This document shows, in pieces, positions 9,207-20,828 of a stretch of 21,924 nt of DNA. Position 1 is the first letter of the stretch; each line of letters opens with the position of its first letter. Position numbers and translations under genes: made by a program. The stretch is from a virus: positions 1-21,924 of IMG/VR virus record IMGVR_UViG_3300010412_000092. One strand, given 5' to 3'. The notes under the pieces are model-generated. The model saw only the letters and a program-made list of their open reading frames with translations. It was not told where the DNA came from and made no database searches.

Positions 9207-12200
9207 TTACCTCGTCAATGTAACTGTTCCACGCCGTATTTCCCTACGGAGTAATCTACCAAGCTTAATTACATCTACACTCTCATTTCCACTGGACTGC
9301 ATAGAGATGTTAAAATCTCCGAAGGTATTATTAGTGCCGCCACCTTCAGCAAATCTACTAACACCAGAGTTCATAGCAACTAATTGACTATAGAACTTAC
9401 GTGTCGCTCCTTTATTCATTACAAATTCACCCGGACTAAGTAATGCAGGTATTGTATCCGTTCCAACTTGAACACGATTACCTTTTGCAAATGTTTGTAT
9501 AGCACCACCTAGGGCTCGAGTAATAAATCCACCTTTAGATTCTGGGAGCGGCTCACCAGGTTTGGGCGGTGGTGTTGGCGTTGGCGGTTTAATCTCGTCG
9601 ATTATTCTCTTTAGATTAGCCATTGAATCTCTTAATTTATCTGCGGCTGAACTGGTTCCAGTAACAGAAGCAGTAAGGTCATTAAGTTGCTGATCAAAAG
9701 TTTTACCTTTAGCTTCAAGAATATCTGCGGCTACTCCAGCTTTTTGCAATTCGGCTTGTAGATTCTTGAGTTGCTGAATCTGTGTTTGGTATGCTTCGAT
9801 GTAACGTTTGTATTCTTCCAGAGGGAAGTTTTGTGTATTCTCCCTGAGTCTTGCTAATTCTTCTGCTGGTAAATTTTGTGCGGCAGCTTTGATTTCTTCA
9901 GAAACACCCTCTAAGAACTTACCAGTCTTAGCATAATAAGCGGCTGTTAAATCCTTAAGTCTTTCGACTACGACTTTATTATTTTCTTTTACGCCTTCTA
10001 TATTTTGTTTAAGAACTTCCTTATTACGTTCAACTTCAGCCCTAGCAGCCTCAATCTTTAACTGGTCAATCCTAGCTGATGTCTGAGCTTCAACACGTTC
10101 TCTTAGTTGTTGCAGAGCTATAACATCTTTAAGGTCAGTTCCATATACTTTTCGTTTTGCAGCTAAAAGACTATCTATAGCATCAAGAGCTTGCTTCTCA
10201 ATACTATTAATTACGTCAAGATTCGTTTCAGTCGCTAATTTAGGGATATTCTTTTCAGCTTCGATATAGGCGTCCAAAGCAGCCTCATAAGCGGCTTGTT
10301 CTTGCTTCTTCTTCTCAACTGCTTCTGCCTCAGCCTTTAGTGTCTCGGCTTTGATTCTCTTAATCTCTTCCAAAGTATTCTTGGTTCTAGTAACTAGAGC
10401 GTCATACTCTTTGGCTAAGTTATTTTGTTCGCTGTAAACTTTCTTTATTGCCGCTTGTTCTTCTTGAAGTGTCTTGATCTTAGCGATACGCTCATTCTGA
10501 GATTCTATGATTAGTTTAATTTCGTCTTTGATTAGATCAATCTTACTGCGATCAGCTGTTCCGCCAGGCTTTGTAAGTTCTTTTTCAATATCGGCTCTCT
10601 TCTTTGCCGCCTTTATACGATCTTTCTCTGCGGCTTCTGCCTCATCCTTTATCTCTTGAGAGATTTCTTTAAATCTTTTCGCACCTTCTTCATTGAGCTT
10701 ATTGCTTTCCTTAATGATATCATCGCGTAATTTTAGAAGTCTATTACCTTCCTCATATAAGTCATTTACACGCTCTACATCCCTAGTAGTATTAAGTTCA
10801 GCACCAATCTCTCGCAGACGATTCTTTATGATATCAAGTTTTGCTTTTGGATCTTCAAGTCCTTCGATCTTAAGATCGAATTTAATTCTCGTTGATTCTT
10901 TTACAAGATCCTTTATTCTATCTTCAACTGTCTTGAGTTCATCCTGAGTTTTCTTAAAAGCATCCTCAAGTAATTTAAGTTCTTCCTTGATGACATCTAT
11001 ATCTTTTTTGGCATTGGCTTTAATAGCCTTGCTCATTGCTTCAAGAAATGTAACAGTCTCGGCAGCATACTTATTAATAAAGCCACTGATACGTGCACCA
11101 GCTTGTAAACTTTCTCTTGCAAGAACATTAAAAGCTTCCACTATAAAATCGGCAGTCTTATTAAGGGCTTGTATACTTTGTTCAGTATAAGTATCCCAAA
11201 ATTCTTCAAAATCGTCTCTTGCTTTTGCAACTGCTTCATTATGTTTATTCCAGAAATAAGTTGTAAGTTCCACTAGTAACTGTAATGTTACATAAGCAGC
11301 AATATAAGGATTAACTGCCGCTGAAGCTCTCATAGCATTACCAAGATTCGTAAATCCAAGTGCTGAAGCGTCGGCGGCTATCTTTAATGTTAAAAGTCTA
11401 TTAGCTACGGCATTTAAGGCTTTCATAACAAAGCCAAGTAATACAGTTGCTACGATCACCTTTATACCACGCATTGCTATTCTAAATGTTTCAAGAACTG
11501 CACCCGTCTTATCTTGTAATGCCGCTAAAGAAGCTATGAAATTCTGACCAATTTCAACTAGGAAGAAATTCTTAAGAGTCTCAACTGTAATAGCTACTTT
11601 CTTACCTTGATTTTCCAACACGGTAGTAACTGCTCTATCAAAGGATTCCTGGGCATTTTGAACGGCTTCCAAATTTTTCTTGTATGTCTCAAATCCAGAA
11701 CCTGTGGCAATCATAGCACCTGTGATACCACGAATCAATGGGAAGAATTTTGCAAGTTCTGTTGAACTTCCCTGAGTCTTCTTACGTAATTCTTCATAAA
11801 TACCAGCAAGACCATAAGTTGCTATAGCGTCTTCACCGGTTGCTACACCAAGTTCAGATAGCAACTTTGTCATTTCTTCTGTTGGTTTAATCAACTTAGT
11901 CAAGAAACCACGTATCTGTGTAGCCGCTTTATTATATTTAACACCTTGGATAGTGATTGTGGCAATCGTAGCAAATAGTTCTTCAAATCCAATATTAAGT
12001 TGACTAGCTAAAACAGCAACGTCACCAATACTTTGTGCCATTTCATCCAACCTAACACGACCAAGTTCAATAGTTTTGAATAGTGCGGCTGAAACTTGGT
12101 CAGCATAAGAAGCATCAAGACTATAGGCGTTGAGTACACCAGTGAGTGCAAGTACAGCTGTATTTTGGTCACTGACTGCTGCGACCGCAAGTCTAGAAGC

Positions 12201-13514
12201 TGACTCTACAAATTTGAGAGCTTCAGCACCCTGAGCAATCTGGTTTGATAGAGCTTGGTAAGCCGCTTCAGCAGAGTCTAGAACGCTGAATCCAAAAGAA
12301 CTAGAAAGTTTAACTAGACCTTCTGCCCATCCACCAAAGGATAACTGAGCACGCTGAGAAATAGTTTGGATTTCTGCAATCTTTATTGATAGTTCTTTAG
12401 CCGCAACGATACCATTACGCATTGCTACTACGATTGCAGAAATTGATCTGTGTATTAACTGTACTGTAACAAGTCGAACAAAGGATTGCCAAGAAATAGT
12501 AAGAGCTTCTGTTTGTTTCTTAGCTTCTTCTGTAGCCTTTGCTTGAGCAGTTCTGGCTATAGCTGATTGTATAAATCCTCTTCTAGTAGCCTCACCAGCT
12601 CTTTTGTTGGCTTCTGCCGTTCCATAAATGGCAGTCATCAGCTTAACATTTGCTCTGCCCAGAGCTTCTAAGTGAGCTTGTTGTTTAGCTCTTACACCAT
12701 CACGGCGTCTTTGTTCTTTTTCTTCGGCGTCAGCAACTTTTTTGGCGGCAGCTACTTGTCGATCATAAGCTGATAGAAGTGCAGACTGTATTCTGCGTAC
12801 TGCATTTTCTCTACGTTGTTCAGCCGCAACCATATCATTAACGGCTTTAATTCGTGCTTGTTTTTCACGTTCGGCATTAGCGATTGCTTCTTGTGTTCTT
12901 TTAGCATCTGTCTGACCAAGTTTTAAATATGCGGCATCAAGTTTTTGAATGGCAGCAACTAATTTGGTATTTTCATCAGTTACTTTTATAGTACCATTAC
13001 GAACTAAATCAAAGTAAGCTTTAGTTTGAGTCGTTGTAAGATTCATCGCATTTGCGATTCTTACAACTGCTTGTTCCTGTGCTCTAAAAGCATTAAGTTC
13101 TTCTGGAGTTGCACGTACACCAGAAGTTGTAGGAAATGCCGATCTGACACCAGCTCTAGTAGCACTTTGTCCAGCAACTAAAGCGGCTTGTAATTTACGT
13201 GCTTCTCGTTCCTGCCTGACCATTTCGGCAGTTGTATCAACCATTGCACTTTTTACAACTGTTTGACCTTTAGCATTTATTTGTAGCGTTTGCGTAAGTG
13301 TCTTGGTAGCAGATATCTCTTTTTGGATATTAGCTATAAAGTCTGTGATTTTACCATCAACGGTAGTTACAGTTTGTTTTACTTGTTTGTCAAGTATATT
13401 ATTATATTTAACGTGAGCGTCCGCCATTGCCTTAAGTTGTTTAAGGTATTGTGCGGCGTTTATTTCAAAATTAACAACTTCTGTTACACCAAAAACTGAT
13501 TTCCAAATCTTCAT
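9207..13514 (-). CDS. Tail tape measure protein (TP901-type)
   Basis: A 1435-residue protein, the largest here, directly after the chaperone region as in most siphoviruses. Residues 4-8 carry the shared W-K-S-V-F motif. Residues about 60-340 are Ala/Lys/Glu-rich helix. Residues about 340-610 match the TP901/PhageMin_Tail type (SRLAVAAVSDQNTAVLALTG, DQVSAALFKTIELGRVRLDEM). Hydrophobic segments lie near 685-715 and 730-755 (VIVATVLLGFVMKAL, YIAAYVTLQLLVEL) and may enter the host membrane at DNA ejection. Residues about 800-1290 are coiled coil, followed by a proline linker near 1315 and the C-terminal signature GTDTIPALLSPGEFVMNKGA. At roughly 1.5 angstrom per residue it would set a tail of about 200 nm if uncut. 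GAGGA precedes the ATG. Confidence 0.93.
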   Translation of the reverse strand: MKIWKSVFGVTEVVNFEINAAQYLKQLKAMADAHVKYNNILDKQVKQTVTTVDGKITDFIANIQKEISATKTLTQTLQINAKGQTVVKSAMVDTTAEMVRQEREARKLQAALVAGQSATRAGVRSAFPTTSGVRATPEELNAFRAQEQAVVRIANAMNLTTTQTKAYFDLVRNGTIKVTDENTKLVAAIQKLDAAYLKLGQTDAKRTQEAIANAEREKQARIKAVNDMVAAEQRRENAVRRIQSALLSAYDRQVAAAKKVADAEEKEQRRRDGVRAKQQAHLEALGRANVKLMTAIYGTAEANKRAGEATRRGFIQSAIARTAQAKATEEAKKQTEALTISWQSFVRLVTVQLIHRSISAIVVAMRNGIVAAKELSIKIAEIQTISQRAQLSFGGWAEGLVKLSSSFGFSVLDSAEAAYQALSNQIAQGAEALKFVESASRLAVAAVSDQNTAVLALTGVLNAYSLDASYADQVSAALFKTIELGRVRLDEMAQSIGDVAVLASQLNIGFEELFATIATITIQGVKYNKAATQIRGFLTKLIKPTEEMTKLLSELGVATGEDAIATYGLAGIYEELRKKTQGSSTELAKFFPLIRGITGAMIATGSGFETYKKNLEAVQNAQESFDRAVTTVLENQGKKVAITVETLKNFFLVEIGQNFIASLAALQDKTGAVLETFRIAMRGIKVIVATVLLGFVMKALNAVANRLLTLKIAADASALGFTNLGNAMRASAAVNPYIAAYVTLQLLVELTTYFWNKHNEAVAKARDDFEEFWDTYTEQSIQALNKTADFIVEAFNVLARESLQAGARISGFINKYAAETVTFLEAMSKAIKANAKKDIDVIKEELKLLEDAFKKTQDELKTVEDRIKDLVKESTRIKFDLKIEGLEDPKAKLDIIKNRLREIGAELNTTRDVERVNDLYEEGNRLLKLRDDIIKESNKLNEEGAKRFKEISQEIKDEAEAAEKDRIKAAKKRADIEKELTKPGGTADRSKIDLIKDEIKLIIESQNERIAKIKTLQEEQAAIKKVYSEQNNLAKEYDALVTRTKNTLEEIKRIKAETLKAEAEAVEKKKQEQAAYEAALDAYIEAEKNIPKLATETNLDVINSIEKQALDAIDSLLAAKRKVYGTDLKDVIALQQLRERVEAQTSARIDQLKIEAARAEVERNKEVLKQNIEGVKENNKVVVERLKDLTAAYYAKTGKFLEGVSEEIKAAAQNLPAEELARLRENTQNFPLEEYKRYIEAYQTQIQQLKNLQAELQKAGVAADILEAKGKTFDQQLNDLTASVTGTSSAADKLRDSMANLKRIIDEIKPPTPTPPPKPGEPLPESKGGFITRALGGAIQTFAKGNRVQVGTDTIPALLSPGEFVMNKGATRKFYSQLVAMNSGVSRFAEGGGTNNTFGDFNISMQSSGNESVDVIKLGRLLRREIRRGTVTLTR

Positions 13515-13515
13515 A

Positions 13516-14106
13516 TTAGTCCTCGAACTGTATTGCAGGTTCTATAACACCTTTGCCAGTCTCCCTAAAAAGAGACTCAGCAGTTGGAACGAATTGCTTG
13601 AAATACTTTTTAAGAAATGCTTCCATTGCCGAAACGGCTTGTCCGACACTCTCCCAGGCTCCACCTGGTTTAGTAAATCCAAGACCATATTCATTTATAA
13701 AGTATTGGTAAACTTGTATTTCGAATACAAAATTATATCTAGGATTATTAGGTGCACCATACTGAAGTTTATAAGACTTCTCACCGAGTTTTTCACCAAG
13801 CTTTCGATCTTTAAATCCACTAGGTATGTACGTACCGGTAATTAATGTTAGCCCCTTTCTACGTTCACGGGCAGGACTTGATGGTGGGATTTCTGCTTTG
13901 ACCTGTCTCGAAAGCTTGAAGAGCGAGGCATAGGACATTCCTGTATCCTGATGCCTCGACACTTCTTCCGCTAGTGTTTCAACAAAAACACGTACGGCAC
14001 GATCAAACATTTTTACATTTTTCTTATGTTGCTTGGTAAGAGTAGCACGGACGTCAGGTGTTAAGCCTAATTTCCGTCGTATAGTTGTTTGATAACCGTA
14101 GCCCAT
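13516..14106 (-). CDS. Unassigned virion morphogenesis protein between GT chaperone and tape measure
   Basis: A 196-residue protein. The first third is basic and helical (FDRAVRVFVETLAEEVSRHQD), followed by TGMSYASLFKLSRQV, then a Gly/Lys-rich turn region and a C-terminal helical part (GQAVSAMEAFLKKYFKQFVP). The helix plus D-T-G-M-S/R pattern slightly recalls HK97 gp10-like or virion morphogenesis proteins, but the match is weak. Its ATG shares one base with the TAA that ends the frameshifted GT extension (TAATG, 14104-14108), and no good ribosome site is visible, so its translation is probably coupled to ribosomes that took the -1 shift. Its TAA is followed one base later by the tape measure ATG. 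A minor tail or tape-measure-associated role is inferred from position. Confidence 0.6.
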   Translation of the reverse strand: MGYGYQTTIRRKLGLTPDVRATLTKQHKKNVKMFDRAVRVFVETLAEEVSRHQDTGMSYASLFKLSRQVKAEIPPSSPARERRKGLTLITGTYIPSGFKDRKLGEKLGEKSYKLQYGAPNNPRYNFVFEIQVYQYFINEYGLGFTKPGGAWESVGQAVSAMEAFLKKYFKQFVPTAESLFRETGKGVIEPAIQFED

Positions 14107-14755
14107 TATATACTTCGCTGTTCTTGATGTTCATAATCTCGAATTTGGTAGTAAGCTAACAAATCCGCTTGAGTAAGAACATCATTCTCTTCCCAATTCT
14201 TTTTCACGTTTGGCGGTACAACTCCCATTAGCTCGCAAGCCCTCCAGATGGCGTACTTATTCGTACGCCCCTGGGGTAGCTTACGTTGCTTTACTGTGCC
14301 GCCTCCCCAGCTAAAAAAGCTTTCGTAGCCTCATCAATTTTCTCTTGATTAAGACCACAAGCCATTTGAATTATCTCAAAGAGCTTTGACACTTCTATAG
14401 TTGTAAGACCAGAAGTCTCGAGTTCCTTGATATAGTTTTCATACGTCTCAGGCTTGGACATATCGACAGTATCCCATTCCAATCCCTCAGTAGCACTAAG
14501 AGATTTAAGAATCATCCAATGGGTCTTTCGAGCCGCCCACTCCTCTAATGCTTTCTTGTACTTAGGACTCTCCACATCCTGAGATACAACCCCACCAGGT
14601 TTCATTATAGCTTCTGGTTTCGGTTGAGGACATATCTTATCGAAGTCCTCATAGTTGCCTACCGGCTTAGCTTTGAATACCAAGTTACCATTTTTCCTAG
14701 GAAAAACAATAACTTCCTCGTTCGGCTGTTCTATATTTTTGCCTTTGACCTTCAT
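14106..14755 (-). CDS. Tail assembly chaperone GT, made by -1 frameshift
   Basis: Read from the chaperone G start through 148 residues, then shifted by -1 at the T TTT TTA heptamer (14318-14312), the frame continues for 68 more residues to a TAA at 14108-14106. The extension begins SWGGGTVKQRK and ends WEENDVLTQADLLAYYQIRD plus a short charged tail. Length and character match the gpT extension of lambda-like chaperones, which binds the tail tube protein while the G part binds the tape measure. The extension has no start of its own and fills exactly the gap between G and the next gene, so expression by frameshift is the simplest reading. Total 216 residues. Join: 14755-14312 then 14312-14109 in the new frame, reading base 14312 twice. 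Confidence 0.88.
14291..14755 (-). CDS. Tail assembly chaperone G (unshifted product)
   Basis: A 154-residue acidic, mostly helical protein that ends at TAA 14293-14291, six codons after the slippery site. It lies between tail tube and tape measure, the fixed position of the lambda gpG type. Such chaperones coat the tape measure and deliver it to tube subunits, and are absent from the finished virion. Visible features are a short beta segment near the N-terminus (EVIVFPRKNGNLVFKAKPVG) followed by helices, including VSKLFEIIQMACGLNQEKID near the C-terminus. The ATG at 14755 is preceded by a purine-rich stretch; the best GAGGAG is 15 bases away and partly inside a small hairpin, which may limit initiation. 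Confidence 0.85.
   Translation of the reverse strand: MKVKGKNIEQPNEEVIVFPRKNGNLVFKAKPVGNYEDFDKICPQPKPEAIMKPGGVVSQDVESPKYKKALEEWAARKTHWMILKSLSATEGLEWDTVDMSKPETYENYIKELETSGLTTIEVSKLFEIIQMACGLNQEKIDEATKAFLAGEAAQ
14312..14318 (-). promoter_or_regulatory. -1 ribosomal slippery heptamer T TTT TTA
   Basis: In the zero frame the codons are GCT TTT TTA GCT, so tRNAs on TTT and TTA can both re-pair one base back. One base after the heptamer, CTGGGG (14310-14305) can pair with CCCCAG (14276-14271). A second hairpin with a 7-base-pair stem, GGCGTAC/GTACGCC, and a GAATAA loop lies at 14269-14250. Either or both could pause the ribosome; the spacer before the first is shorter than usual. Confidence 0.88.
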
Positions 14756-14773
14756 ACTAACTCTCTCTTTCTC

Positions 14774-14790
14774 CTCGCAGATATCGCGAG
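14774..14790 (-). promoter_or_regulatory. Small hairpin over the chaperone G ribosome-binding site
   Basis: On the transcript CTCGC (14790-14786) can pair with GCGAG (14778-14774) across a seven-base loop. The 3' arm includes part of GAGGAG (14776-14771), the strongest Shine-Dalgarno-like sequence before the chaperone start. Two bases of the 5' arm (14789-14790) are also part of the outer stem of the larger hairpin upstream, so the two structures compete. Confidence 0.4.
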
Positions 14791-14837
14791 TATTGGTTGT
14801 GGACGGGATGGGATTTGACCCATCCCGTCCGAATACT
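14789..14837 (-). promoter_or_regulatory. Strong RNA hairpin after the tail tube gene
   Basis: A perfect 12-base-pair stem, GGACGGGATGGG (14801-14812) with CCCATCCCGTCC (14819-14830), closes a six-base loop. An outer stem of six pairs, AGTATT (14789-14794) with AATACT (14832-14837), lies beyond an unequal internal loop. It sits 17 bases after the tail tube stop. No U-run follows on the transcript, so it is not a normal intrinsic terminator. A role in protecting the 3' end of upstream mRNA, or as a partial attenuator or processing site, is more likely. Confidence 0.75.
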
Positions 14838-14847
14838 GCACTACACG

Positions 14848-15378
14848 TTAGCTAGACTGTGCCGACCTGACAACAGTAGCTTGTGTTACATTACACTTAC
14901 CAGACACACTCACTGTACCAGCCCGAAGGTCGTGGTCCAGGGACTCGTAACGGAAGTCAGGAAGTGTGATAACTTCCTGGTCACCGCACGAGGCAGGTAT
15001 TGGAGCATATGTAACTTCGATGTCAACCGCATATGGACGACAAGCATCTGCATCTGTCGATACCCAATTTGCGGCATTTCCGATCCTCTTCAGAGCCTCT
15101 TCCACTGTCGGAGGCGCTCCTGATGCTGAAGATCCACGCAGATATTCCCATACGAAGTCCATTGAGACATCGACAGGTATCTGGTCACCTTCACGAACCT
15201 CATCAAGTATACCACGATCAAGTGTATACTCAATATTACGAGCTTCCGTGTACGTTAGATTTCCCTCACCAATGGTTATTGTCAACTCATTGGTACTACC
15301 ATCCTTGATCTTGATGGTAGCATATTTCAGGTCAATCTGTGCGAACACAGAGATCCACGGCCGAACCATTCTATTCAT
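14848..15378 (-). CDS. Major tail tube protein
   Basis: A 176-residue beta-rich protein directly before the chaperone pair, where the siphovirus tube subunit is usually encoded. Strand patterns YATIKIKDG and LTITIGEGNLTYTEARNIEY, then a loop with DRGILDEVREGDQIPVDVSM and FVWEYLRG, fit tube proteins that stack as hexamer rings around the tape measure. EVITLPDFRYESLDHDL and TVSVSGKCN make the last strands. Residues 8-12 (W-I-S-V-F) carry the motif shared with portal, scaffold, coat and tape measure. AAGGAG six bases before the ATG at 15378 favours that start over the ATG at codon 4. A strong hairpin follows the stop codon. Confidence 0.82.
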   Translation of the reverse strand: MNRMVRPWISVFAQIDLKYATIKIKDGSTNELTITIGEGNLTYTEARNIEYTLDRGILDEVREGDQIPVDVSMDFVWEYLRGSSASGAPPTVEEALKRIGNAANWVSTDADACRPYAVDIEVTYAPIPASCGDQEVITLPDFRYESLDHDLRAGTVSVSGKCNVTQATVVRSAQSS

Positions 15379-15388
15379 CTTATTCTCC

Positions 15389-15862
15389 TTACACTTTTAC
15401 CAAACACTCATAGTGTCCTTCGACACTAGCTTGAACTACTTCACTCTTAACATCCACTTTTCCAAAATGGAAGATGTCTAGTCTATGACGTTTTTCGGTA
15501 TTCTGCAACAAGTACCAACACGCCCATTGAGACTGATCATCATCAACACCAGTCCCGAATTTGAATAATCGTATCGTTGTGAAAGCGGCAGCAACAATGC
15601 CAACATTCTGATGGATACGATGATAATTATTGTTGTCCATAGCGGATGTAACCAATATATTGACTTCGCCATATATACGCCAATAGTCCTTACTGATTTC
15701 AGTAATCTGCGGACCGTCCATCCGTAACTCGATGAAGTCTTTCAAGTCACGGGTGTCTCTTTTCTGACCCTCAATAAACATATATAAACCTTGCCTACGG
15801 TCATCAAAATGTTTGCTGACCGAAGCAAAACACCATCTGGGCCAATTTGGATTTGCACTCAT
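15389..15862 (-). CDS. Putative tail terminator (tail completion) protein
   Basis: A 157-residue alpha/beta protein encoded just before the tail tube. The pattern of an N-terminal helix (RWCFASVSKHFDD), two strands (GLYMFIEGQKRD and FIELRMDG), and a long strand (YWRIYGEVNILVTSAM) resembles the tail terminators of siphoviruses, which cap the tube in a ring and join it to the head. Later come TTIRLFKFGTGVDDDQS and a C-terminal EGHYECLVKV strand. Family assignment rests on length, order and gene position rather than a decisive motif. The start lies three bases after the upstream stop, and the ribosome site is weak, which suggests coupling to the gene before it. Confidence 0.6.
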   Translation of the reverse strand: MSANPNWPRWCFASVSKHFDDRRQGLYMFIEGQKRDTRDLKDFIELRMDGPQITEISKDYWRIYGEVNILVTSAMDNNNYHRIHQNVGIVAAAFTTIRLFKFGTGVDDDQSQWACWYLLQNTEKRHRLDIFHFGKVDVKSEVVQASVEGHYECLVKV

Positions 15863-15865
15863 ATT

Positions 15866-16330
15866 TTAACTCGCATTATCTGAATTAACAATTTCTCTGG
15901 CTCTTAATAGATAAGCATTATTATCTTCTGCCAGAGTTACTTCATAAATATGATATTCACGATTATTAATAACGATGCTATACTCAGTAGTTATTTCCCT
16001 AACAGGATTTGGATATCTGTAGTCAAGAGTAAGATCTTTGATATCAATTATAAACCACCTATCATTGGTATCAAAATACCCACCATAAGTAAAGTTCTTA
16101 TTGGCGGCAATAAATGAAAGGTCATAAACAAAGTCTGATATATTTCTGCGTGGAAGTCTAATGATTCTGGAAATCGCTAGATCCACAAAATTAATAGTAG
16201 TTTCGCCCGTTGTAATATCGTAACCAGATGTTGAATTATCTGGATAACGCAGAATACCGGCAATACCAAATTGCCGTTTTAGTTTATATACGACTAACGC
16301 GATTTGTCTTAATGTATTCTTAGCTGTCAT
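15866..16330 (-). CDS. Putative head closure / head-tail connector protein
   Basis: A 154-residue protein between the coat gene and the tail terminator, the usual slot for the head closure ring. It begins with a basic helix (TLRQIALVVYKLKRQFG) followed by beta-rich sequence with a Y-D-I-T-T-G-E-T-T-I-N-F turn and strands DRWFIIDIKDL, REYHIYEVTLAED and AYLLRAREIV, much like small SPP1 gp16-type closure proteins. AAGGAAG a few bases before the ATG supports the start. The assignment is inferred; it could also be another adaptor of the neck. Confidence 0.6.
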   Translation of the reverse strand: MTAKNTLRQIALVVYKLKRQFGIAGILRYPDNSTSGYDITTGETTINFVDLAISRIIRLPRRNISDFVYDLSFIAANKNFTYGGYFDTNDRWFIIDIKDLTLDYRYPNPVREITTEYSIVINNREYHIYEVTLAEDNNAYLLRAREIVNSDNAS

Positions 16331-16347
16331 ATCTTCCTTAGGGGATC

Positions 16348-16369
16348 GGGAGTCCCCGAAGGGACTCCC
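16348..16369 (-). promoter_or_regulatory. UUCG-capped RNA hairpin after the coat protein gene
   Basis: A perfect nine-base-pair stem, GGGAGTCCC with GGGACTCCC, closes a four-base loop. On the minus-strand transcript the loop is UUCG closed by C-G, one of the most stable RNA tetraloops known. It starts 22 bases after the coat stop and ends 17 bases before the head closure start. No U-run follows, so it is unlikely to be a full terminator. It may stabilise the coat mRNA end or lower readthrough into later genes. Confidence 0.8.
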
Positions 16370-16391
16370 TCTCCAAACCTCCGCTTAGGCA

Positions 16392-17771
16392 TTAGGCATA
16401 CATTACGACGCCAAGGTTGGTGTCAAGAGTCTTAACACCAGCCAGCATATCGACAGTAACCAGATGTCCTTGCTTACGACCTTCGTACGTAATCACAACA
16501 CGAATGGACAGACCATTGTAGTTAGCGACCGCACTCAGAGCACCAGTTCCAGACCTCGGCTGAGCCAGAGGGCGAGTAACCAATGCGATAGCATTGCGAT
16601 GGAAACCAAAGCAATACTCACCAGCCGGGCCAATACCAACAACAGCGTCATCAGCTGCCGCCGCGTCCAGAGGACGGTTAGGCAGAAGAGCCGTGGTTGT
16701 CGGAGTGCTAAGAGCACTATACCTATCAGCCGCCGTGCCGATAGAAATCAGCTGACCCGTCTTAGGGGCAACAGTGAATCCATCGATTACGAGATCCTTG
16801 CCATACCCTGCGGCATAGCCAGCACCGTAATTAATTGCACCAGCCGTGTAAACAGTCACAACTGCATTGTCCAGAACTGCAGACTTCAGACCAGGAGTGA
16901 TCGTTATCTGAGTAGGAGTTGCACCACCAACTGTTCCGGTAATCATCTGAGGAACCATATCCCCAGCGATTGTGCACCAGCTACCATTGGCTATTGCCGC
17001 ACTGAATCCGTCAACTGTCAGAACTGTTGAACCAACTGCATACCCAGCCAGCAGATTGATTGCACCAGTCACAGTCGTGTTTCCAGCTGCAACGCTAGGT
17101 ACATTCTGGCCCATAAAGAAGTCAAACCCAAACTTGCGTCCGAGCCAGCCTTCCCTCATAGCCGTACCTGCATCACCAACTTCGTTAGCCTTAATGAACT
17201 CACCGATGTCAAGCAGAGCACCCTCTGCATTCGGAGACACAAGCATATTGCGTCCCATCATCGGAACCTTATTGTTGTTCATCACTTCCTTAGCCGCAAT
17301 CACAGTACTGCGAGTCGGGTTCGTTCCCAGCTTACCAACTGAGTTACCCATAAACTCGTAGACCTGACCGAGCACGACTTCGTCGATCGCCTGAGCTTCT
17401 GCCGTAAGAGCAGGAGCAAGATAAAGGGAAACAAGATCCTTAAAGGACTTGCTCTCTTCACCATCCTTGATCGTGAATGAAACGTGCAGGTGCTGATTCA
17501 GCTTAACCGGTACGTTCGTTGCCTGTGCATCCTGGACCGTAACCTCGTCAGCGTCCGTCTTGCGTTTTGCAACGAAAGAATTAGGACGATGAGCGTTAAC
17601 AGTATCACCAAAGCTTGCAATCTCGTTCTCGAAATCACGATAGACGAGGTTTGCAGCTACCATATTGGCTTCCAGAATCATCAATGCTTCCTGAGCCCAC
17701 ACCTCTGGGATGAGAGCATCATTATCATTGTCGAACACTGTCAGCCACACCTTCTGAACCTTCTTATTCAT
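16392..17771 (-). CDS. Major capsid protein, P22 coat-like (HK97 fold)
   Basis: A 459-residue coat protein. The N-terminal ALIPEVWAQEALMILEANMV, followed by NLVYRDFENEI and FGDTVNAHRP, matches the P22 gp5-like coat family, and MMGRNMLVSPNAEGALLDI fits its central part. Between residues about 235 and 379 lies a beta-rich insertion made of two similar halves (GAINLLAGYA...LTVDGF and GAINYGAGYA...LVIDGF), in the region where P22-type proteins carry an inserted domain. The protein ends with RVVITYEGRKQGHLVTVDML, the usual P-domain strand region. Residues 9-13 (W-L-T-V-F) carry the shared N-terminal motif. GAGGAGA about nine bases upstream supports the ATG. No maturation protease is encoded nearby, in keeping with the P22 way of assembly on a separate scaffold. 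Confidence 0.9.
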   Translation of the reverse strand: MNKKVQKVWLTVFDNDNDALIPEVWAQEALMILEANMVAANLVYRDFENEIASFGDTVNAHRPNSFVAKRKTDADEVTVQDAQATNVPVKLNQHLHVSFTIKDGEESKSFKDLVSLYLAPALTAEAQAIDEVVLGQVYEFMGNSVGKLGTNPTRSTVIAAKEVMNNNKVPMMGRNMLVSPNAEGALLDIGEFIKANEVGDAGTAMREGWLGRKFGFDFFMGQNVPSVAAGNTTVTGAINLLAGYAVGSTVLTVDGFSAAIANGSWCTIAGDMVPQMITGTVGGATPTQITITPGLKSAVLDNAVVTVYTAGAINYGAGYAAGYGKDLVIDGFTVAPKTGQLISIGTAADRYSALSTPTTTALLPNRPLDAAAADDAVVGIGPAGEYCFGFHRNAIALVTRPLAQPRSGTGALSAVANYNGLSIRVVITYEGRKQGHLVTVDMLAGVKTLDTNLGVVMYA

Positions 17772-17802
17772 CTTCTACTTTCTCCTCGGATTCAAACATC
17801 CG

Positions 17803-18624
17803 TTAGATTTTACCAGCTTTCCTAGCTTCCCTATAAGCCTTAGGATCTCTCGCCAGTGATTTGAGGTCGGCTTCTTTTCCAGTGCCATTGTTACTGCCAC
17901 CGATTCCACCAACTCCCTTACCCTTGAAGAGATTTCCATACTTAGGGATTTCCGTCATCCTCTTAACTGCCTCCCTTACGGAAAGCGTAAGAGTCACAGG
18001 TTTGCCGTCCTTGTCAGAGTCCTCAAATTCGACTTTGGGACTAAACTTTCCGTTCGGCTTACCATCTTCATCCAAAGCTTCTGCAAGCCTTGTATTAGGG
18101 CGTAGTATAGCAACGATCTGCTCGGGAACGAAAGCTTCGTTCTCAAGAGACGCGTCAATTATTGTACGCTCAATAGTCTGATTCGTGAATCGTTGTTGCC
18201 ACGCGTCACGGTCAGCTGTAAGTTTTTCGATCTCCTCACTATGTTTCTTAGCGAGTTTATCTTTTTCCTTCTTCGAAAGTTCTTCCTTCGTAAGAAGGTC
18301 ATTCCTCATACTCTCGAGACGTTTCTCGAGTTCTGTTCTCTCGTCATTTGTGAGGTTAGCTTTAGCTTTAAGGGCTTCTGCTTCCTCTATAGCCTGCTTA
18401 ATTCTGGCTTCGTGCTTGCGACGATCTTCGGCAAGGATTTTATTAACCTGCTCTTGGGTAAGAAGCTTTCCCTTACCATCGCCACCAGTACCGCCACCAG
18501 ATCCACCTTCACCACCAGCTCCGCCTTCTCCGCCAGCTCCGCCTTCTCCGCCTTCTCCCTCGAATACGGCATACCACGGATGGTTAAGGATTGTTCTAAT
18601 CATATTTTCTTCATACTTCTTCAT
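17803..18624 (-). CDS. Scaffolding protein
   Basis: A protein of about 273 residues encoded directly before the coat. Residues 17-21 (W-Y-A-V-F) carry the shared motif, followed by a Gly/Glu/Ala linker (about 22-52). From about 55 to 150 it is highly charged coiled coil (EQVNKILAEDRRKHEARIKQ, LEKRLESMRNDLLTKEE). The rest is less charged and ends with a short basic helix (AYREARKAGKI), the kind of tail that binds coat in P22-type scaffolds. I prefer the ATG at 18624 because AGGAG (18632-18636) is seven bases upstream; for the ATG at 18630 the gap is only one base. No serine-protease triad is visible, so I do not call it a protease fusion. Confidence 0.8.
   Translation of the reverse strand: MKKYEENMIRTILNHPWYAVFEGEGGEGGAGGEGGAGGEGGSGGGTGGDGKGKLLTQEQVNKILAEDRRKHEARIKQAIEEAEALKAKANLTNDERTELEKRLESMRNDLLTKEELSKKEKDKLAKKHSEEIEKLTADRDAWQQRFTNQTIERTIIDASLENEAFVPEQIVAILRPNTRLAEALDEDGKPNGKFSPKVEFEDSDKDGKPVTLTLSVREAVKRMTEIPKYGNLFKGKGVGGIGGSNNGTGKEADLKSLARDPKAYREARKAGKI
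18518..18553 (-). repeat. 18-base tandem repeat coding for the scaffold Gly/Glu linker
   Basis: Two copies of an 18-base unit, GCTCCGCCTTCTCCGCC plus A or T, lie side by side, with partial copies on both sides. They encode repeats of Gly-Gly-Glu-Gly-Gly-Ala. The linker could change length by replication slippage without loss of frame. Confidence 0.75.
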
Positions 18625-18634
18625 CTTCATTCTC

Positions 18635-19081
18635 CTAGGAGACCCTAGTAATGCTAAACGAATTCACGTCACGCAGATAGGGCATCAGGTATCTCCAAGC
18701 GACTGAGCTTGGGATTCCCGCAACTATGTGCGGTGGTGGAGTCGTTCGATCATAGGTTGATCTCACATTTGCATAACCTTGAGAAACCATATTTAGTTGC
18801 TCAAACTCTAGTTCAATGTCAAAACCATCCAGAAACTTAAGTGCACACTCGGCACAAGCTTTCTTGATGTCTTCAGGTACTACTGTGTCGGCATCCCTGG
18901 GAAATTGATTCTCCTGACTAGAATCCGTCTTACTCCCAAGATAGTTCAGTCTATCAATAGCTTCTGTAGCCATAGTTAATGCAGAAACTTTAGATGAATC
19001 AGATGCTAAGTCCCAAGGTTCAGTATTGAGCCTTGTCGCAAAGTATGTGTCACCTTCTGCAGTTGTCATATAATTAGGCAT
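18635..19081 (-). CDS. Head-tail adaptor, DnaT-like (gp6-type) protein
   Basis: A 148-residue helical protein. The pattern Y-M-T-T-A-E-G-D-T-Y-F-A-T-R-L near the start, then W-D-L-A-S, ALTMATEAIDRLNYLG, QFPRD, VPEDIKKACAECALKFL, is the signature of the DnaT-like adaptor family that forms a ring under the portal. I chose the ATG at 19081 because GGGGAGGG (19090-19097) is eight bases upstream; a GTG at 19099 would put the start inside the preceding gene without a good ribosome site. It overlaps the end of the portal gene by eight bases. Its position between portal and scaffold, instead of after the coat, is less common. Confidence 0.78.
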   Translation of the reverse strand: MPNYMTTAEGDTYFATRLNTEPWDLASDSSKVSALTMATEAIDRLNYLGSKTDSSQENQFPRDADTVVPEDIKKACAECALKFLDGFDIELEFEQLNMVSQGYANVRSTYDRTTPPPHIVAGIPSSVAWRYLMPYLRDVNSFSITRVS

Positions 19082-20828
19082 TGTTCTTACCCTCCCCACG
19101 AGTCTTAGTACTTACAACATCATCTTCATCTGTCTCTCTTGATGCCGCTTTTTCTTTTGACCCTGCGGTAGGATCTGCACTGGCGTCATCGACGCCCCTT
19201 GCGGCTGGGTCTGTTTGGGCCATTTGGATTCTCGCAATCCTTTCTGCGTGTTCCTTCTTAGCCTTCTCAGCCTCGCCCTTCGGATATAGACGTGCTATGC
19301 TTGCTGTCTCAACAGTGACAAGACCTTGCTCTATATCACTCTTGAGTATATCAGGATCTATCACGATTACTTCAGCTTTATCAATTTCATCGTGCATTAC
19401 CTTTAGTTCTTCAGTTGAAACTCTGTGACCAACTAGGGTTGTTATAGTTTCCTTAGCCACTTCCTTCTGATAGGTCTTAGATGGGATGTTAGGAATCAAT
19501 TCTATGTTTTCCTTAGCTTCCTTTCTTCGATCCTCGTCAGTCTTTAGACTATAGTTAGAAGGATACGTCACCTTCGTTTCACCTTTATATGATTCATACT
19601 CGTTCCAGATATTAGCGATACGCTCTTCAGCATACTGCAATTCCATTCCGATGTATGAAAGACCTGCTTCCAGACTTCTGTTATCTTCTTGCTTACTTTC
19701 AGCAGAAGCTCTTACTGGCTGAAGTCCAGATACTGCCAAATTAACTAATTGCCTTATTTCATCCTTAAGTTGATCTTGCTTCTTCATTGAAGCAAGCAAA
19801 GGTTCTGGAGAAGGATGTATAAATTCCGGTCTCTCAACTCCCTTAGGGTATCTGCGACCTTGAGCCGTACCAAGCTCAATTTGATTTTTATTTGCCGTAT
19901 CAGCTGATACCTTTTCACCGTCCTCTGTTCCAGCTGTATCATTAGCGTAAGCTTTACGAAGGTTAGCCATTTCTACGGCTATATCAAATTGCTCAGTATA
20001 GAATGGGAAATTGGATTTCAATGTATAGTTTATGTCTGAAGAAGCAAGATTCGTCATAGCGATTTGATAATCTGCAACATCAACAAGAAGACTCTGTGAG
20101 AGTTCAGCTATAACAAAAGGTATCTGCGTCAGTGCCAGAGTCTGTCTTTCTTTTTCTTCTCCATTCAAGTCATAGATAACAACTTCTACGCCAGAATTTG
20201 TAAGCTTCAAATGCCTATAGGATTTTTCTGTTTGAACAGTAAGTCCTGTGATTTCGTCAATCTTCGGTCGTGTATCAGCTAGTAACAAAGAGACAAGTTC
20301 ACCGTTCTTGGTAATAGTCCAAGACTTTATTTCCTCTGCCTTATAAATATAGATATATGGACGTATTCCTTCAGTATCCAATCTAGTAGGATTTTGCGGA
20401 AGTGGATCTTTGTCAACGTATATTCCAACTTTAGCCATTGAAAGCAACTCAGGTAATACTAGTCGACCAACAAATCCATTCATTGAATTACCTGTATAGT
20501 CAACACCATTATCTTCACCACCAATTGCCGCCTGATAAGTGTCTGCTCCACCAGTTCTTTGAATGTCAACCATACGTTGATAAATAGCATTTTTGATATC
20601 CATTACTGCTGCTTTCGCGTGAGCCGCACAGTAACTCATCTTTTTACGATCACGGAAATCATTCCAGTCTTCTCTTGAACTAAATCTTTCTAGGTACTCC
20701 TCCACAAATGCTTTACCGCCGGTGAAGGTATACCTGAATTTTTGCCAAGCAGAAAGATTGGCACTATACTCAGGATGTACCATATTCTGAATATTTGATC
20801 CTGCAAATATTGATTTCCAGATTCTCAT
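19074..20828 (-). CDS. Portal protein
   Basis: A 584-residue protein immediately after the terminase, as expected for the dodecameric portal through which DNA is packed. The N-terminal part has HPEYSANLSAWQKFRYTFTGG, then EEYLERFSSREDWNDFRDRKK and a long helix-rich stretch (SYCAAHAKAAVMDIKNAIYQ), similar to DUF4055/SPP1 gp6-type portals. The middle has the beta-rich wing (RPYIYIYKAEEIKSWTITKNG), and the region around residues 340-420 forms the stem and crown helices (PLLASMKKQDQLKDEIRQLV). The last 60 residues are charged and low in complexity. Residues 4-8 (W-K-S-I-F) carry the shared motif. The ATG overlaps the terminase TGA (ATGA), with AGGGAG a few bases before it. Confidence 0.87.
   Translation of the reverse strand: MRIWKSIFAGSNIQNMVHPEYSANLSAWQKFRYTFTGGKAFVEEYLERFSSREDWNDFRDRKKMSYCAAHAKAAVMDIKNAIYQRMVDIQRTGGADTYQAAIGGEDNGVDYTGNSMNGFVGRLVLPELLSMAKVGIYVDKDPLPQNPTRLDTEGIRPYIYIYKAEEIKSWTITKNGELVSLLLADTRPKIDEITGLTVQTEKSYRHLKLTNSGVEVVIYDLNGEEKERQTLALTQIPFVIAELSQSLLVDVADYQIAMTNLASSDINYTLKSNFPFYTEQFDIAVEMANLRKAYANDTAGTEDGEKVSADTANKNQIELGTAQGRRYPKGVERPEFIHPSPEPLLASMKKQDQLKDEIRQLVNLAVSGLQPVRASAESKQEDNRSLEAGLSYIGMELQYAEERIANIWNEYESYKGETKVTYPSNYSLKTDEDRRKEAKENIELIPNIPSKTYQKEVAKETITTLVGHRVSTEELKVMHDEIDKAEVIVIDPDILKSDIEQGLVTVETASIARLYPKGEAEKAKKEHAERIARIQMAQTDPAARGVDDASADPTAGSKEKAASRETDEDDVVSTKTRGEGKNNA

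Follow-up and report, generated by a model that had tools for sequence, protein, structure and literature searches.

The virus record IMGVR_UViG_3300010412_000092, analyzed over its whole 21.9 kb (here called the window), encodes five virion proteins (portal, scaffold, coat, tail tube, and tape measure) that share a short N-terminal leader. This leader is real, genome-specific, and shared among unrelated head and tail proteins: related phages carry leaders of other sequences, and each genome repeats its own on the scaffold, the coat, and often the tail tube. We consider it likely that the leader is cleavable and is recognized by a co-evolving peptidase with a C39 fold, encoded by the phage itself. 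We infer the activity of this protein, the cut, and its effect on assembly from sequence comparison and structure prediction.

The initial annotation of the window had pointed to W-x-[STA]-[IV]-F near the N-termini of the five proteins. All five matches were present as placed, each in an open reading frame (ORF) with an ATG start. Among the 19 window proteins tested, the pattern occurred exactly five times, always near the N-terminus and nowhere else. In shuffled proteins, 0.0094 carriers were expected within the first 30 residues, and none of 20,000 shuffles reached two carriers. The tryptophan of the scaffold motif is W19 when counted from the first ATG and W17 when counted from the second (residue 3), which has the better Shine-Dalgarno spacing.

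Searches of viral contigs with coat and portal sequences yielded well over 200 related loci (about 230). The literal motif was not conserved among them; W-x-[STA]-[IV]-F proved to be only this phage's version. The leaders of other loci read YPTTY (L012), FINTF (L022), SLFTPAH (L072), F[IV]VADARPIAHD (L017), RKYPVPH, RSYLVPH, and RKYLIPH (L029), KIQLTYC and RIQLTYC (L076), KKFWKVRY and KKNFWKVRY (L226), or LYLSQPFTACY and LYLSRPWSACF (L231). We scored leader similarity as the best 7-residue match in 63 nonredundant genomes (60 for the coat-scaffold pair) and compared it with that of pairs shuffled among genomes. Coat and scaffold leaders scored 25.6 within genomes as opposed to 14.4 (standard deviation, 0.6) after shuffling, a z score of 17.8; the corresponding z scores were 12.4 for coat-tube and 8.9 for tube-scaffold pairs. 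The observed similarity was reached in none of 5,000 shuffles, and nine control comparisons of downstream segments gave z scores from -1.0 to 1.5. Chance, or an effect of the way in which the pattern had been chosen, might be suspected for so short a motif, but with 0.009 carriers expected against five found in the window, and with the coat-scaffold z score across 60 genomes, we rejected this explanation, the probability of which is negligible.

In a family-wise test, the z scores for leader carriage were 17.7 for the scaffold, 14.1 for the tube, 2.4 for the portal, 0.3 for the tape measure, and at most 1.7 for all other families. In this test, the leader was not carried by the adaptor, head closure, terminator, chaperone, TerL, decoration-type, or hub genes; its absence from the first four in the window had been noted at the outset. 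When 15 long contigs were scanned with their own leaders, the scaffold, coat, and tube stood out, together with the tape measure of G003, the portal of G008, and, more weakly, the tape measure of G007. Portal leaders were also found in L008, L009, L047, and L094. The closest relatives of the window, all short contigs, share its carriers piecewise: portal, scaffold, and coat in L037, coat and tube in L021, and tube and tape measure in L013. The L037 portal starts with MRIWKSVF followed by DIKI, and the L013 tape measure starts with MKSWMSVF followed by ALEN. Of the five carriers originally described, then, the scaffold, coat, and tube recur regularly, so the sharing goes beyond one or two proteins, but the portal and tape measure lack the motif in most relatives. 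Because portal and tape-measure carriage is occasional, the five-carrier state is local to the vicinity of the window. In the clade with LYLS leaders, the tube is untagged (MARIELR).

In L283-L285 and L288, the coat N-terminus is RCKEADRNDPPDSKELVTDCWAQEG, with neither the usual leader nor an xPExWA start, and the scaffold has a leader; a frameshift or a different start is possible. In L029 and L030, a tandem-repeat ORF (HNDT..NHND) lies upstream of the portal and runs into the portal frame. The scaffolds of the window (17803-18630) and of its homologues contain long, genome-variable, low-complexity runs (GEGG, DPPAG, EAAAA) right behind the leader.

The level at which the leader is maintained was examined through its codons. 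Identical leader residues used the same codon in 91 of 179, 56 of 116, and 25 of 60 cases, as opposed to 79, 47, and 25.5 expected from per-genome codon usage, and the ratios of nonsynonymous to synonymous polymorphism (pN/pS) were 0.40 and 0.55. Identical residues therefore do not share codons much beyond what codon usage provides, and these values together indicate that the leader is translated and that its peptide is under selection. The data thus support selection on the leader peptide rather than on the nucleotide sequence, as the initial annotation had argued in setting aside an initiation signal. Similarity at the DNA or RNA level, through a regulatory element shared by gene starts or through gene conversion that copied 5' ends from one gene to another, would account for the fact that every copy stands at a gene start. 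It fits poorly with the codon counts and pN/pS values below 1, with the variable distance of the leader from the start codon (3 to about 25 residues) and with the lack of a leader in the adaptor, terminator, and chaperone genes of the same operon. An initiation or other nucleotide signal and gene conversion were rejected on the codon test and pN/pS, and we give such explanations almost no credence.

The conserved part of the leader lies at its end. The usual ending, with a putative recognition part of about six residues, is [KR]-[PVIA]-[WF]-x-[PTAS]-[VCA]-[FY]; the next residue is A, D, or E. Leaders are often basic and hydrophobic, and the residues farther upstream vary freely. Numbered from a putative cut at the junction, nonredundant leaders have mostly W or F at P5, mostly V, C, or A at P2, and A, D, or E at P1'; about 80% of the nonredundant coats and scaffolds have Y or F at P1, a place sometimes taken by H, G, or C. 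Against 214 coats with a leader, 11 loci (some on one contig) have coats starting with M-AN[DSN] exactly at the junction. Among distant relatives in culture, the coats of Galactica, R5C, MAR10, and VanLee, which start with MANT, VANT, or MAND, likewise begin at P1'. Untagged tubes start with M-A-[QR]-I-[DE] at the junction, their methionine sitting at the P1 place before the alanine. The initiator methionine can be removed from protein N-termini. Since untagged coats and tubes start at P1', removal of the leader would recreate the N-terminus that untagged relatives obtain by methionine loss, and the junction is in this respect a candidate cleavage site.

A candidate for the enzyme was found among the genes conserved in long contigs. 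It is a free-standing, phage-encoded protein of about 155 residues, the family of which has invariant C11, H121, and D132 in 37 of 37 members. The family had no Pfam match up to an E value of 5 and no PHROG match, and a tblastn search for relatives in 50,697 phage records returned none. An AlphaFold2 model (predicted local distance difference test [pLDDT] score, 94; predicted template modeling [pTM] score, 0.87) gave PCAT1, ComA, and a C39 protease with leader peptide as the best VIA matches (Z, 10.9 to 11.6; root mean square deviation, 2.3 to 2.6); for PCAT1 and ComA, the deviation was 2.5 to 2.6. Foldseek matched it to staphopain and PCAT1 in the PDB with a probability of 1.00 (E, 2e-3 to 2e-2), and the best structural match in BFVD was a C39-domain protein of Bacillus phage vB_BcoS-136. 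The predicted fold is that of a papain-type cysteine protease, closest to C39 leader-peptidase domains, and not the serine fold of known prohead proteases. The protein is presumably an active peptidase. Its gene lies among replication genes, near that for DNA polymerase and between an NYN gene and a sigma-like gene; it is outside the head module, and in G001 about 33 to 38 kb separate it from the genes for coat and terminase. Most long contigs have the NYN-domain-like gene (L106:648-1620, at the same place elsewhere) right at the C39-fold gene or close to it. A very divergent C39-fold homologue (L133:6656-7069, in G013; 18% identity) keeps the cysteine and the histidine and has N at the place of the aspartate; the G013 genome also has an unusual leader, RKYPVPH.

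The peptidase gene accompanied the leader. All 23 tagged contigs that had been selected by coat and that reached the locus carried it (G001-G010, G012, G013, G052-G059, G068, G070, and G071); the tagged contigs G011, G015, G060, and G061 and the untagged G069 end before the locus and were left out. A reverse search starting from the peptidase gene gave 20 further contigs holding a coat gene, and the coat had a leader in 20 of 20. G014, an untagged contig of 82.8 kb from a near relative, has the polymerase, VRR-NUC, NYN-like, and sigma-like genes in the same order, and its NYN-like and sigma-like genes overlap, with no peptidase gene between them. The gene was also absent from five complete untagged cultured phages. 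For genome contigs, the peptidase was present in the source genomes of L406 and L407, which are tagged, and absent from those of L408-L410, which are not. Peptidase similarity correlated with leader similarity when coat similarity was held constant (partial Mantel r, 0.225; p, 0.001; n = 29). In matched genomes, the values for neighboring genes were 0.04 for VRR-NUC, 0.06 for the sigma-like gene, 0.08 for the helicase, and 0.12 for the polymerase (all p > 0.05), as opposed to 0.19 to 0.21 for the peptidase. We count this correlation as supporting, not decisive, evidence for co-evolution. Among the meanings first offered for the motif (a sorting or docking tag, a membrane-touching segment, or a site processed by a protease whose gene lies elsewhere), the last agrees best with a C39-like protein that tracks the leader.

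Several observations weigh against cleavage by this protein. Known C39 peptidases cut after Gly-Gly, and the leaders here lack a Gly-Gly end, having Y or F at P1 and V, C, or A at P2. Invariance in the peptidase family extends beyond the catalytic triad to H33 and E56. In the 22-kb contig L164, the coat (MANDLDAF) and the tube (MAQLDLK) are untagged and the scaffold keeps IWTPVYGED, which resembles a leader; the system may be half lost in this contig. The window ends short of the peptidase locus, and its own peptidase is assumed. Cleavage itself is deduced, a point that also favors an uncleaved tag that docks the proteins to an assembly factor, a membrane site, or a chaperone, with the C39-fold protein acting as a receptor or being unrelated. 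The propeptides of T4 internal proteins act first as capsid-targeting sequences (PMC9026906), the basic and hydrophobic character of many leaders would suit docking, and in an AlphaFold2 model of the window coat the leader is predicted to be disordered and hence accessible (residues 1 to 17, pLDDT below 50; remainder folded, mean 84). However, a docking tag would not call for the intact Cys-His-Asp triad of all 37 C39-fold proteins, and the leader is conserved where a cut site would be, at the junction, ending where untagged homologues start, with free variation upstream. On balance, we regard docking alone as unlikely.

The association between peptidase and leader has weak points of its own. 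The co-evolution signal is modest and was not significant within single clades (p, 0.06 and 0.11); the adjacent NYN gene nearly equals the peptidase (0.17 versus 0.18; n = 15); and G014 is the sole untagged contig from a near relative that covers the locus. A modest partial Mantel signal and the small number of such contigs are also what would be seen if the leader were removed by a protease of the host, with the C39-fold gene of the phage being a clade marker only. A host enzyme, however, would not explain why leaders differ between related phages and change together on all carriers, and the gene is missing from G014 exactly between its neighbors. The weaker correlation of polymerase, helicase, sigma-like, and VRR-NUC genes with the leader also speaks against a clade marker, and we find a host protease quite improbable.

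In the explanation that we prefer, cleavage by the phage C39-fold peptidase, the scaffold, coat, and tube (in the window, also the portal and tape measure) would be made with a leader ending in a phage-specific recognition sequence. The peptidase would recognize the leader and cut after the aromatic residue, yielding the ancestral mature N-terminus, A-N-D.. on the coat and A-Q-I-D on the tube. Since a single peptidase would read every copy, leader and peptidase would co-evolve, and all leaders of a genome would change together. Scaffold, coat, and tube are normally the subunits made in the largest numbers, and leaders are most regular on the scaffold and coat, followed by the tube. The leader would probably delay or order the assembly of these abundant subunits until its removal, and blocking or delaying polymerization would be its simplest purpose. 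More tentatively, each phage may have a private leader code, read by its own C39-fold peptidase, that licenses head and tail assembly together and shields it from co-infecting relatives or host countermeasures, as a head-and-tail maturation system apart from the prohead proteases. Such a code, by keeping the subunits of one phage from mixing with those of another, would account for the fast and concerted change of leaders; we hold this extension to be possible, though doubtful.

The leader-bearing proteins of the window are listed in Table 1. No Pfam or PHROG match was obtained for the tail tube or for most small connector genes, which were named by gene order. One would expect a frameshifted second tail chaperone at 14107-14290, in the space that separates the chaperone-like gene from the following one.

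Table 1. Leader-bearing virion proteins of the window and the extent of their leaders
Feature	Position	Strand	Evidence or motif match
Portal protein	19074..20828	-	PHROG 145, E 3e-35
Head scaffolding protein	17803..18630	-	PHROG 206, E 3e-13
Major capsid protein, P22-coat family	16392..17771	-	PHROG 283, E 1e-69; PF11651, E 2e-31
Tail tube protein	14848..15378	-	Role from gene order and the initial annotation; conserved in 15/16 contigs compared
Tape-measure protein	9207..13514	-	PHROG 991, E 3e-36; PF10145
Portal leader MRIWKSIF, then AGSN...	20805..20828	-	RIWKSIFA, W4
Scaffold leader MKMKKYEENMIRTILNHPWYAVF, then EGEGG...	18562..18630	-	HPWYAVFE
Coat leader MNKKVQKVWLTVF, then DNDNDALIPEVWA...	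17733..17771	-	KVWLTVFD, W9
Tail tube leader MNRMVRPWISVF, then AQIDLK...	15343..15378	-	RPWISVFA, W8
Tape-measure leader MKIWKSVF, then GVTE...	13491..13514	-	KIWKSVFG, W4

Phage T4 offers a parallel to the shared leaders, in that a number of its proteins bear short N-terminal propeptides that resemble one another: propeptides of several internal proteins contain similar capsid-targeting sequences, and the prohead protease gp21 cuts the head propeptides (PMC9026906). There, a single phage protease acts inside the prohead on internal head proteins and the head shell only. In the phages studied here, the scaffold, coat, and tube, with the occasional tape measure and portal, are tagged, the enzyme gene lies among replication genes, and the sequence varies between phages; unlike those of T4 capsid targeting, the carriers are not confined to proteins packed inside the head, as the coat, tube, and tape measure illustrate. 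In phage SPN3US, eight head proteins lose their N-terminal propeptides to the phiKZ-type prohead protease gp245, which cuts at one consensus site (PMC10052503). The presumed system resembles it in having one phage protease, several N-terminally tagged substrates, and one consensus site. It differs in that the SPN3US substrates are head proteins with propeptides of up to 254 residues, whereas the leaders described here have about 8 to 25 residues and include that of the tail tube. A gene outside the head module and a predicted papain-like cysteine fold further set the enzyme apart from prohead proteases. With C39 leader peptidases, such as the domains of ComA and PCAT1, it has in common the predicted fold and the order of Cys, His, and Asp, and its substrate, too, is presumed to be an N-terminal leader; unlike them, it is free-standing, with no ABC transporter, no Gly-Gly site, and no Pfam sequence match. 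Phage RNA polymerases and their promoters offer another parallel, one trans-acting reader with many genome sites that change together between relatives, except that in the present case a peptide serves as the site and a presumed peptidase as its reader. Our literature searches returned no description of a leader shared by head and tail proteins, nor of any phage maturation peptidase of the C39 type.

One tagged, provirus-like member was found in a Planctomycetota metagenome-assembled genome, within a contig of 444 kb (QQVP01000119.1; L406 and L415-L419). An integrase-like ORF lies on one side (L415:6358-7395), together with a resolvase-like ORF (L417:3642-4376) and, farther along, cellular-looking genes. 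This provirus hints at the host of an otherwise uncultured phage family.

The phage maturation proteases described so far act on head proteins from inside the prohead. If our explanation is true, a cleavable leader on head and tail proteins, served by a dedicated nonstructural cysteine peptidase, would represent a different form of assembly control. The concerted changes of the leader provide a natural data set on peptidase specificity, with dozens of matched peptidase-leader pairs, and these phages may be a source of orthogonal site-specific peptidases. The leader is also a new marker for a large family of uncultured phages, at least one member of which is resident in Planctomycetota.

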